From a virus, in IMG/VR virus record IMGVR_UViG_3300045243_000036, positions 1 to 39,976 of that record: DNA of 39,976 nucleotides; one strand, written 5' to 3'. The position numbers and the translations under genes are program-made. This document shows positions 5,384-13,496 of this stretch, piece by piece. The notes beneath the pieces are model-generated. The model was given only the letters and a program-made list of their open reading frames with translations. It was not told the origin of the DNA and ran no database searches. Every line of letters begins with the position of its first letter. The stretch's first letter is position 1.

Positions 5384-5529
5384 GCCCGTCGATCAGCTAC
5401 GACCAGCGTCGGCAGACGGCTACGTTCAGCGGTCCCGGTGGTTTCACTGAGGTCGCGATGGACGAGGACACCGCGTCGCATGTCGCGATGGTTCTCGGAG
5501 TCGTGCTCAAGGTCAGGAGCGGACGATGA
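5380..5529 (+). CDS. Small hypothetical protein (49 aa)
   Basis: ATG at 5380 overlaps the previous stop (ATGA) and its own stop overlaps the next start. A beta-hairpin-like N-terminal half (SISYDQRRQTATFSG) is followed by a helix. Function unknown. Confidence 0.55.
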   Translation: MSPSISYDQRRQTATFSGPGGFTEVAMDEDTASHVAMVLGVVLKVRSGR

Positions 5530-5732
5530 CCGCGTTTCCGCTTGGTGCCCGGTGCATGTTCCGCACCGTCACGGCCTCCACCTACTGGAAGACCGGCACC
5601 GTCACACGCCCGCCGGTCGTGAACCTGGACGGCCTGCCGGTGATGGTCGACCTCACCGACCCCCAGGGCCGCACATGGCCCGTCGCGGTCAACAACATTC
5701 TTCAGACCGGATGGGAGTCCGAGGCAGCATGA
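5526..5732 (+). CDS. Small beta-rich hypothetical protein (68 aa)
   Basis: ATG at 5526, ATGA overlap on both sides. Alternating hydrophobic residues suggest a small beta-barrel, similar in style to small SH3-like phage proteins. It lies directly before the recombination ATPase. Function unknown. Confidence 0.55.
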   Translation: MTAFPLGARCMFRTVTASTYWKTGTVTRPPVVNLDGLPVMVDLTDPQGRTWPVAVNNILQTGWESEAA

Positions 5733-6544
5733 GCGACGTACCGACACCCCTGATCTTCGTGGACCCCGCCGCCACCGACCCTACCTACCGCGTGTGCCTG
5801 TGGGCCGCGCCCGGCGAGGGCAAGAGCGTCGCCGCGTCCTCAGCCCCGGACCCGATCCTCGTGCTGTCCGCCGACCGTCCGTCCGCCTACCTGTACGCCC
5901 GCAAGCACCATGCGGGGAAGGACATCCGCGAGGTTCGGTACGCCGGCGTCGACACTCTCACCCAGGTCTACACGTACCTCGCTGAGCCAGGCTGCGACAT
6001 CCGCACCGTGATCGTCGACCCGGTGAGCAACATCGTCGACCAACTCGCCGACGTAGCCCCCGCCGGACGGGAGGGCGGCCCGGACTACCAGTGGATCAAC
6101 AAGAAGATGCTGGGGTTCGTGAAGTCGCTGCGCCGGTTCGACGTGAACGTGGTGCTCGTGGCGCACGAAAAGGTCAACGACGGGAAGAAGGGTGACGGCA
6201 AGATGTACCCGTCGCTCGGCGGCGCGACGCTCATCAACAAGCTGCTGGCGGAGATGGACATCGTCGCCCACATCGAGCGGGTGACGCGCACGCTCTCGGA
6301 CGAGTCCGAGGAAACGGTGTGGGTTGGGCAGCTTCAGCCCGTGCGGAACCTTGTGTGCAAGGAGTCGACGGCGGCTGACCTCGGTGACCGTCGTGTGGCG
6401 GATCTGTCGCGGTGGTTCGCGTTGGCGAACGAGGCAACGCGCCCCGACAACAGCGACCTTCCGCTTGGCCTGGCTGACGATGAGCCGGACCCGGCAGCGG
6501 ACCCAGACATCGAGGAGCAGATCGCGCTTGGGGAGGCGGAATGA
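5729..6544 (+). CDS. Sak4-like RecA-fold ATPase (AAA_24 type), recombination (271 aa)
   Basis: ATG at 5729 (ATGA overlap). Walker A is APGEGKS at residues 27-33 and Walker B is TVIVDP around D97. A conserved VVLVAHEK segment and a glycine-rich PSLGGA region follow. This arrangement is typical of phage single-strand annealing ATPases of the Sak4 group, which work with single-strand binding proteins in recombination and replication. The last 40 residues are acidic. No separate SSB gene was recognised, so the partner may be from the host or one of the small unknown proteins. Confidence 0.8.
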   Translation: MSDVPTPLIFVDPAATDPTYRVCLWAAPGEGKSVAASSAPDPILVLSADRPSAYLYARKHHAGKDIREVRYAGVDTLTQVYTYLAEPGCDIRTVIVDPVSNIVDQLADVAPAGREGGPDYQWINKKMLGFVKSLRRFDVNVVLVAHEKVNDGKKGDGKMYPSLGGATLINKLLAEMDIVAHIERVTRTLSDESEETVWVGQLQPVRNLVCKESTAADLGDRRVADLSRWFALANEATRPDNSDLPLGLADDEPDPAADPDIEEQIALGEAE

Positions 6545-8730: not shown

Positions 8731-8917
8731 CCACGAAAGCGTGTCTCCGGTCGAGTGGCCGAAGGAGCGGATTCTCTCGTTCCTGAGGGCCTGCGGCCCG
8801 GCGTCAGACCCGGTGGAATGGCACAAAATCATGGAGCAGATCGACCCGGACTACGAAACGTCGGGGCCGGGCGCGTCCCGCCGCTGGTTGGAGCGGGAGC
8901 GTGACCGAAATGCCTGA
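8723..8917 (+). CDS. Small hypothetical protein (64 aa)
   Basis: ATG at 8723 overlaps the previous gene by 8 bases. A helical protein with a predicted winged-helix-like pattern (WPKERILSFLRACG...VEWHKIMEQI). Function unknown; DNA binding is possible. Confidence 0.5.
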   Translation: MPDHESVSPVEWPKERILSFLRACGPASDPVEWHKIMEQIDPDYETSGPGASRRWLERERDRNA

Positions 8918-9596
8918 TTCGGGCGCGCGGCCCATCCTGCTCGACCTGTTCTGCTGCGCCGGCGGGATGGCGATGGGCTACTACCGGGCGGGGTTCGACG
9001 TCATCGGCGTGGACATCGCGCCGCAGCCGAACTACCCCTTCGAGTTCCACCAGATGGACGCGCTCGACGCGCTGCGCTGGATGAACCTCGACCGGTGTAC
9101 GGCGATTCACGCGAGCCCTCCATGCCAAGCGCACAGCGACCTTCAGAAGCAGTCGAAACGCGAGTACGAGGACTTCATCCCGCCCGTCCGGGAAGCCCTG
9201 CGTGCGACCGGTTTGCCGTACGTGATCGAGAACGTCGAGGGCGCGCCGCTCATCGATCCGGTGATGCTGTGCGGGACGATGTTCCCCGGGCTGCGGGTGC
9301 TGCGCCACCGGCTGTTCGAGACGAACTGGCCGCTCGTCGCGCCGCGGCATGGCAGGCACCCGCTCGTGTTCACGCACGACAAGCGCAAGGCGCACTACGG
9401 GAAGCTCGACCAGAACACGGCGTTCGTGCAGGTCACCGGCGGCGGGAACTGCACCGTGGCGAACAAGGCCGACGCCATGGGCATCGACTGGATGACCGGC
9501 CGCGAACTGAACGAAGCGATCCCGCCGGCCTACGCGGAGTACATCGGGGGTGGGCTCCTCGCCCATCTGCTCTACGAAGAAGTGGAGGCAGCATGA
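8901..9596 (+). CDS. Short DNA (cytosine-5) methyltransferase (231 aa)
   Basis: Motif I (LDLFCCAGG, residues 14-22) binds S-adenosylmethionine; PPCQ at 73-76 holds the catalytic Cys75; ENV at 110-112 is motif VI; RHRLFE near 135 is motif VIII; IPPAYAEYIG near the end is motif X. It is complete but short, with a reduced target-recognition region. Start GTG 8901 or ATG 8910; the latter has GGGAGC 9 bases upstream. No restriction enzyme is next to it, so it is an orphan that may protect phage DNA from host enzymes. Confidence 0.9.
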   Translation: MTEMPDSGARPILLDLFCCAGGMAMGYYRAGFDVIGVDIAPQPNYPFEFHQMDALDALRWMNLDRCTAIHASPPCQAHSDLQKQSKREYEDFIPPVREALRATGLPYVIENVEGAPLIDPVMLCGTMFPGLRVLRHRLFETNWPLVAPRHGRHPLVFTHDKRKAHYGKLDQNTAFVQVTGGGNCTVANKADAMGIDWMTGRELNEAIPPAYAEYIGGGLLAHLLYEEVEAA

Positions 9597-12031: not shown

Positions 12032-12412
12032 ATGAGCACGCTTGGGCATGGCATCTCAGAGTTTCTGAGCACGTACCCTCGCGCTCGGTGCAACATCCGT
12101 GGACCGGAGCACGGGGACCCGGCGTGGCGGCTGAACGTCACGACATCCACGGGTGACGTCCTGAGCTTCGACGGGCCGACACTGGCCGGCGTCATCAGGC
12201 TTGCTGAGACGTCGATGCTCGGGAACTTCTCCTCTCAGGCCGTGTCTCCGGGCGTAACGACCACCCAGCGTGTCGCCCTGGCCTTGGTCAACGCCGAGCG
12301 GTACTGGCACGACCTCGAGCCGCTCGACTCCCTCGCGTCGCTCACGCAGACCGACCGGGTGAAGTGGATCGCGTTCGCGCAGATCGCCAAGACTGAGATC
12401 GAGTCCGCATGA
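12032..12412 (+). CDS. Hypothetical protein (126 aa)
   Basis: ATG at 12032, first plus-strand gene after the integrase, without a strong ribosome site. A beta-rich N-terminal half is followed by helices (QRVALALVNAERYW). Ends at an ATGA junction with the RuvC-like gene. Function unknown; nearness suggests DNA metabolism. Confidence 0.55.
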   Translation: MSTLGHGISEFLSTYPRARCNIRGPEHGDPAWRLNVTTSTGDVLSFDGPTLAGVIRLAETSMLGNFSSQAVSPGVTTTQRVALALVNAERYWHDLEPLDSLASLTQTDRVKWIAFAQIAKTEIESA

Positions 12413-12897
12413 CCGCCGTCTTCCTCGGCATCGACCCGGCTTCGTCCCTTGCTGCTGTCGCGTCTATCGACGAGCACGCAGGCTTGCGTTACGCGGAGTT
12501 GCGTGCGTCCGGGGAACCGCTCCGGCGCCTGGACTCCATCGGCCGTCAGCTTCGCGAGTTCCTGAACGCGGCGGCGGACGTGGGGGTGCATGCGTGTGTG
12601 ATCGAGCGGCCCGTAACGCGCCACGGTGGCATGACCCTGGGTGGGGCGTTCGGGGTGTGCGGCGTGGAAGCGGTCCGGGCGCTTGCGTGCCCGGTGGTGG
12701 ATTGGACGCCGGCGCAGATAGATGCGCGCGTGTACCGGGCCGGGAAGCCCGCTGGTGGCGACCGGAAGGCGCGGAGCATGGCGCACGCCCGCAGCCTGGG
12801 TTATGAGGGCGGGTCGCAGGACATCGCGGACGCCCTGGTGGCAGCGGACTGCGCCCGGCTGCTTTGCATGGACAACGACGCGAAGGAGGCAGCGTGA
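12409..12897 (+). CDS. RuvC-like Holliday junction resolvase (162 aa)
   Basis: ATG at 12409 (ATGA overlap). The RNase H-like fold opens with FLGIDPASS (D9), then VIERP (E66) and QDIADALVAAD (D138, D141). These four acidic residues match the RuvC catalytic tetrad almost position for position (D7, E66, D138, D141 in E. coli). It would resolve branched DNA before packaging. It directly precedes the replication initiator. Confidence 0.85.
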   Translation: MTAVFLGIDPASSLAAVASIDEHAGLRYAELRASGEPLRRLDSIGRQLREFLNAAADVGVHACVIERPVTRHGGMTLGGAFGVCGVEAVRALACPVVDWTPAQIDARVYRAGKPAGGDRKARSMAHARSLGYEGGSQDIADALVAADCARLLCMDNDAKEAA

Positions 12898-13496
12898 GTG
12901 CCCGGTTCGACAAGTTCATGATCCACGTGGACATCGGCACGGACGAGAAGCTCGCCGGGTTCTCGGATTCGGAGCGCCTGTGTCACATCGCCGGTGTGCT
13001 CGCCATCGCGGCGAAGTCTCCGATGCGCGGCTGCCTTGTCGTGGGTGACCTCGAGGCGACCGCTGAGCACGTCGCGCGACGGGCCGGCGTCACTGCCCGT
13101 GTGGCGAAGTCCACGATGAAGAAGCTGACTGAGGCGGGAATCTTGGTCTACGACGACGACCTCGGCTGCTTGCGGGTCCATAACTGGGAGCGGTTCAACC
13201 CGGCCCCGAAGAAGGACACGGGAAACGCGGAACGGCAGGCGCGTTGGCGGAAGCGTCAGGCCGAACGTAACGCCTTGAGTAACGCCCCGCGTAACGCGTT
13301 ACGTAACGGCAAAAGTAACGCGCGTAACGCCGACGAAGGAGAAGGGGAAGCTGAAGTAACTCCTTTTAGCGCCGGTCTTACTTCTGAGGTTGTGGGGGAT
13401 TGGAGCGAGCCGGGCGATCCGGGGCCGGAGCCGCCTTGCAACGTGGTGGACATCCTCGACGGTAAGACGATCAATCAGGAAAGGGGGGTTGCCTGA
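12894..13496 (+). CDS. Replication initiator-like protein with internal origin (200 aa)
   Basis: GTG at 12894 (GTGA overlap) has GAAGGAGG about 8 bases upstream. Residues about 1-95 form a winged-helix domain as in phage replication initiators (HVDIGTDEKL... through a VAKSTMKKLTEAGIL recognition helix and RVHNWERFNP). A basic helix (about 107-122) follows, then Asn/Ala/Arg repeats encoded by the iteron array, then an acidic tail. The lambda O gene carries its origin in the same way. No helicase or loader gene was found, so host replication proteins must be recruited. Confidence 0.75.
   Translation: MSARFDKFMIHVDIGTDEKLAGFSDSERLCHIAGVLAIAAKSPMRGCLVVGDLEATAEHVARRAGVTARVAKSTMKKLTEAGILVYDDDLGCLRVHNWERFNPAPKKDTGNAERQARWRKRQAERNALSNAPRNALRNGKSNARNADEGEGEAEVTPFSAGLTSEVVGDWSEPGDPGPEPPCNVVDILDGKTINQERGVA
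13267..13329. repeat. Iteron array inside the initiator gene (putative replication origin)
   Basis: GTAACG occurs at 13267, 13279, 13291, 13303, 13315 and 13324: four intervals of exactly 12 bp and one of 9. A seventh copy is inverted at 13297-13302, making an 11-12 bp palindrome with the next. Just downstream (about 13350-13395) the sequence is less GC-rich, with runs such as ACTCCTTTTAG, a possible unwinding element. Confidence 0.75.

Follow-up and report, generated by a model that had tools for sequence, protein, structure and literature searches.

The 39,976-nucleotide stretch of viral DNA analysed here (the window) carries six copies of the hexamer GTAACG crowded into the middle of an initiator-like gene. 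The locus raises the question of whether this array is kept for the peptide that it encodes or for the DNA itself and, if the latter, what purpose it serves and which part of which protein reads it. Sequence comparisons suggest that the array is probably the iteron part of the phage's replication origin, placed inside its own initiator gene and read through a short basic helix of the encoded protein. The features concerned are as follows.

12894..13496, plus strand: initiator-like gene of 200 amino acids, GTG start at 12894 and stop at 13496 (open reading frame and translation)
12969..13178, plus strand: predicted winged-helix domain, residues 26-95 (AlphaFold2 model)
13218..13280, plus strand: predicted basic helix, residues 109-129 (TGNAERQARWRKRQAERNALS; AlphaFold2 model and covariation in relatives)
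13267, 13279, 13291, 13303, 13315 and 13324 (span 13267..13329), plus strand: six direct GTAACG iterons, in steps of 12, 12, 12, 12 and 9 bp
13297..13302, minus strand: one inverted iteron (CGTTAC on the plus strand), within the direct array
13335..13350, plus strand: purine tract of 16 nt, the longest purine run of the window, beginning 6 bp past the last iteron
13335..13394, unstranded: candidate DNA unwinding element; only one other separate 60-bp stretch of the window is less stable

The gene has AAGGAGG at 12883-12889, ahead of the GTG at 12894, and its product is laid out as a winged helix, a basic helix, the iteron-encoded linker and a disordered tail. In the AlphaFold2 model the winged helix comprises helices at residues 26-41, 53-64 and 68-80 and strands at 47-49, 84-87 and 92-95, with pLDDT mostly 84-93 over the block. 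Residues 109-129 are modelled as a single helix, with pLDDT ~90 over most of it, and the disorder that follows residue 129 takes in most of the array-encoded linker. The protein gives weak matches to PHROG 2447 (replication initiation, E 0.0043), to PHROG 391 (O-like, the lambda O family, E 0.093) and to further HTH models, and hhalign against PF09681-type initiators aligns 104 columns, running through the basic segment (E 2e-4, probability 47%). A Pfam/NCBIfam scan returned no family at E 0.001, PF09681 (Phage_rep_org_N) was absent from the matches of the protein even at E 5, and a PDB sequence search and Foldseek gave weak matches only, mostly to generic winged-helix regulators. No close relative was detected in the phage, IMG/VR or GTDB collections, so that the family evidence rests on distant homology. 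Taken together, the modelled winged helix and basic helix and the weak PHROG and hhalign matches characterise the product as a predicted DNA-binding protein of the initiator type. The model of a PF09681-type relative (L140) has the same order, a winged helix and then a helix at residues 114-141.

The six direct copies and the inverted copy at 13297 lie exactly where the preliminary description had placed them, and its statement that the repeat keeps codon frame also holds, since all intervals (12, 12, 12, 12 and 9 bp) are in frame and the encoded peptide is R/S-N-A/G. The presence of an in-frame R/S-N-A repeat in the protein would fit a disordered linker that has grown by tandem duplication, with no role for the DNA. 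The statistics of the array speak against this. GTAACG is the most clustered hexamer of the window, with 6 copies in 63 bp, whereas the best cluster of any hexamer in 40 first-order Markov sequences held 3-4 copies in 63 bp and never more than 4; its window-wide count is only 16 against 9.2 expected, so the signal is one of clustering. When the protein was held fixed and codons were resampled at the phage's own usage, the array region held 0.75 sites on average, and none of 200,000 draws yielded more than 5; the observed number is 7. The array's Arg and Ser residues need minor codons each time, CGT (19%) and AGT (3%), and the probability that all six sites read xGT-AAC is 6e-7 from the phage's own codon usage. 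Permuting codons within the gene, a stricter procedure in which the array's own codons are re-used, gave 35/20,000.

Other phage initiators bear on the same point. A first survey scanned IMG/VR for three spaced GTAACG and found arrays in many initiator-like genes, just after the basic segment; among 27 aligned proteins, the window's included, members match replisome organiser, DnaD-like and replication initiation families. Some of the scanned loci were unrelated coding repeats (V-T-G-N structural repeats, for example) and were left out of the initiator set. Because this first sample was recruited by the motif, further IMG/VR initiators were recruited by the winged helix alone, as sets A3 and A2. 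In the A3 linkers GTAACG is the top hexamer over a synonymous null (182 against 21 expected), and in the A2 linkers the top two are GTCACG (89 against 11) and GTAACG (98 against 16). Same-strand sites in relatives are spaced 10-12 bp apart, and every gene with at least three sites uses at least two coding phases (85/85; 21/21, 21/21 and 43/43). The outcome named beforehand as telling against a DNA role was a conserved protein repeat with different synonymous codons in homologues. The relatives present the opposite: the hexamer is kept while reading frame, strand and encoded peptide change, the peptides being quite different. One phage (L063) also has 13 GTAACG/CGTTAC sites at similar spacing in a region with stops in all six frames (reverse-complement coordinates 2568-2710), ~880 bp upstream of its own initiator gene, which carries 5 more.

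The protein-repeat explanation therefore fails on the codon null, the several coding phases in relatives and the non-coding L063 array, and we regard it as extremely unlikely. We conclude that the array is preserved as DNA sequence and not for the encoded protein. Arrangements beyond the linker occur too: L085, L095, L119, L406 and L414 have, besides the linker array, a second small iteron cluster inside the winged-helix coding region, and L005 (2695-2760) has seven GTAACG at exact 10-bp spacing in a gene that is not clearly an initiator.

Just downstream of the array, 13335-13394 has a nearest-neighbour stability at a rank fraction of 7.5e-5 among 60-bp stretches. The less GC-rich flank previously described at 13350-13395 is thus real, but by stability it starts earlier than was thought. 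The tract is rich in purines and its AT content is only moderate, which would be in keeping with 67% GC; its position and strand asymmetry match those of relatives. In set A3 the purine words AGAGAA and AGAAGA follow GTAACG, and the purine tract starts 0-3 bp from the last site in most genes. Three high-GC phages, L123 (Yvonnetastic), L124 (Appa) and L065, have CCCGT or GACCC repeats after the array, with a strand asymmetry opposite to that of purine tracts.

An initiator-type gene, iterons and an easily melted tract are accordingly all present, and the lambda-ori-like anatomy proposed for the locus stands: as in lambda O and its ori, repeated sites constrained as DNA lie inside the gene, beside a tract that should melt easily (13335-13394). 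The lambda ori in gene O, with its Stx-phage versions, shares the mid-gene iterons and the adjoining easily melted tract; its iterons are longer and different in sequence, in contrast to the 6-bp core repeated every 10-12 bp here. Lambda O protein binds its own gene, the iterons lying mid-gene beside the easily melted tract (PMC7466680). In SPP1, which has oriL and oriR, the direct repeats bound by gp38 lie both within its own gene and at another origin (PMC6316719); inside gene 38 there are direct repeats and an AT-rich DUE, and the second origin lies elsewhere, an arrangement with which L063, possibly a two-origin phage like SPP1, may be compared. In the genes of Staphylococcus phi11 gp15 and the phiEf11 replisome organiser (PF09681), the linker that comes after a basic segment holds GTAACG arrays, and purine-rich or GATAAAGATA tracts follow them; these genes differ from the window gene in encoding the PF09681 winged helix, to which the window protein has no match. 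For mycobacteriophage RepA, the origins were suspected to be within repA or immediately ahead of it, and no iterons were found (PMC7157519); our actinophage alignment was too diverse to serve for scanning.

An array preserved as DNA could also bind its own protein mainly for control, whether autoregulation or copy number, with the origin elsewhere. Iteron initiators often autoregulate, and on the minus strand of L060 GTAACG sites occur both in the linker and immediately ahead of the initiator's start codon, which suggests autoregulation. The window array, however, is mid-gene rather than at a promoter, a melting-prone tract is fixed beside the array in many phages, and Staphylococcus phage 80alpha offers a precedent for an ori in this gene, so that control as the main function appears unlikely. 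According to the 80alpha record, the initiator gene contains a rep_origin; ORF20 is not complementable in trans, and ORF20 and ORF21 together drive plasmid replication (PMC5499656). The ORF20 ori resembles the window locus as an origin within an initiator gene, and differs in having its own GGAAAAACCGTTAA-type repeats with a ACTAATAAT tract.

Which part of the initiator reads the iteron can be approached through relatives in which the core differs. Among 59 non-redundant PF09681-type genes, 26 have GTAACG and 28 have GTCACG, and the residue that follows the invariant Arg of the basic segment sorts them completely (26/26 and 28/28), with V, L or Q accompanying GTAACG and K or N accompanying GTCACG. 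On the best tree of the winged-helix bodies, built without the basic segment, iteron type switches at least 14 times and the key residue switches alongside. Well-supported branches alone give four independent switches, all concordant, which are too few for significance by themselves (sign test p 0.125). L203 may be set beside L206 and L208: their winged-helix bodies are identical, yet their basic helices and iterons both differ.

A second family, recruited by its body, behaves in the same way: V occurs with GTAACG in 5/5 genes and K with GTCACG in 14/14, genes with T or M (e.g. L531, L533 and L535) have GTGACG, and neither of the two main cores is present in the 37 genes with A or S, where GAACGC is enriched (120 against 36 expected). 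In L474-L553 of this family GAACGC appears as a third iteron core, its initiators having A at position 4 of the helix and W at position 7. The covariation also holds in pairs from a third family. The covarying positions are 0, 4 and 7, with Arg at 3 and 8, and would share one face of a helix. Those that covary with iteron type in relatives correspond in the window protein to R114, Q115, W118 and R119, R114 being nearly invariant among the 27 aligned initiators, the window's included. Only aligned families were used here, because anchors slipped and the result was noisy when the basic segments of unrelated families were compared by regex. Glutamine at the key position was considered as a diagnostic of GTAACG and rejected, as it occurs with both cores in other families; the reader assignment for the window itself, which has Q, is therefore made by homology.

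This survey of other phages suggests that the short basic helix of the same protein reads the iteron. The preliminary description had assigned binding to the winged helix, and this is probably wrong. The winged helix does have a predicted DNA-binding fold (AlphaFold2) and could be the reader, the basic helix adding nonspecific contacts only, but this seems improbable: among PF09681-type relatives the bodies fail to predict iteron type, as the 14 switches and the identical bodies with different iterons illustrate, whereas the basic helix does predict it. That another protein (a host factor, or a phage repressor, partition or packaging protein) reads GTAACG would fit the recurrence of the core across many phage lineages, but is very unlikely given that, within families, a switch of core goes with a change in the initiator's own helix.

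The main alternative to a functional code between helix and iteron is physical linkage, since the two are adjacent in the gene and recombination could transfer both together. Function is favoured, though not proved, by the recurrence of the pattern in unrelated families and by the absence of mismatched combinations there. We lean towards the view that many phage initiators share an exchangeable cassette of a reader and its own target, in which the basic helix specifies the core of the array downstream, the window being a high-GC example. In such a cassette, on slightly better than even chances, two or three helix positions would set the core (GTAACG, GTCACG, GAACGC or GTGACG), and the array would lie shortly downstream in the same gene. 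If so, origin specificity changes by the swapping of one small segment. The basic regions of bZIP proteins provide an analogy only, with specificity-linked residues at 0, 4 and 7 and Arg at 8 on one predicted helix; they have no homology to the phage helix, which follows a winged helix, and in the AlphaFold2 model of the window protein the helix stops at residue 129 and a leucine zipper is not evident.

The covariation across families is more surprising than the single array in the window. It offers a DNA recognition code that can be tested directly and, perhaps, a basis for compatibility groups among plasmids derived from phages. To our knowledge the origins of most sequenced phages are unmapped, and a hexamer array with a purine tract in the initiator linker would allow origins to be located from sequence in many of them. 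A literature search by hexamers and phage ori terms, with most subscription papers outside its scope, found no description of this array type, of these iterons across phages or of such a code.

The reading of the array as part of the origin appears well supported by the array itself, selection at the DNA level, recurrence in other phages, the adjoining tract and the covariation in relatives; for the window phage we infer protein binding, melting, helicase loading and origin activity. The GTAACG sites lie roughly one helical turn apart, and initiator molecules would occupy them via the basic helix (residues 109-129) that follows the winged helix. The assembled complex would then melt the purine-rich, low-stability tract just downstream, at which the helicase would be loaded. 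Among the window proteins that were scanned, none was recognised as a helicase or loader, and GC skew of the window gave no clear origin signal. Genes of the early region, at 12409-12897, 5438-6544 and 8901-9596, gave matches to families of RuvC-like resolvase, Sak4-like annealing protein and DNA methyltransferase.
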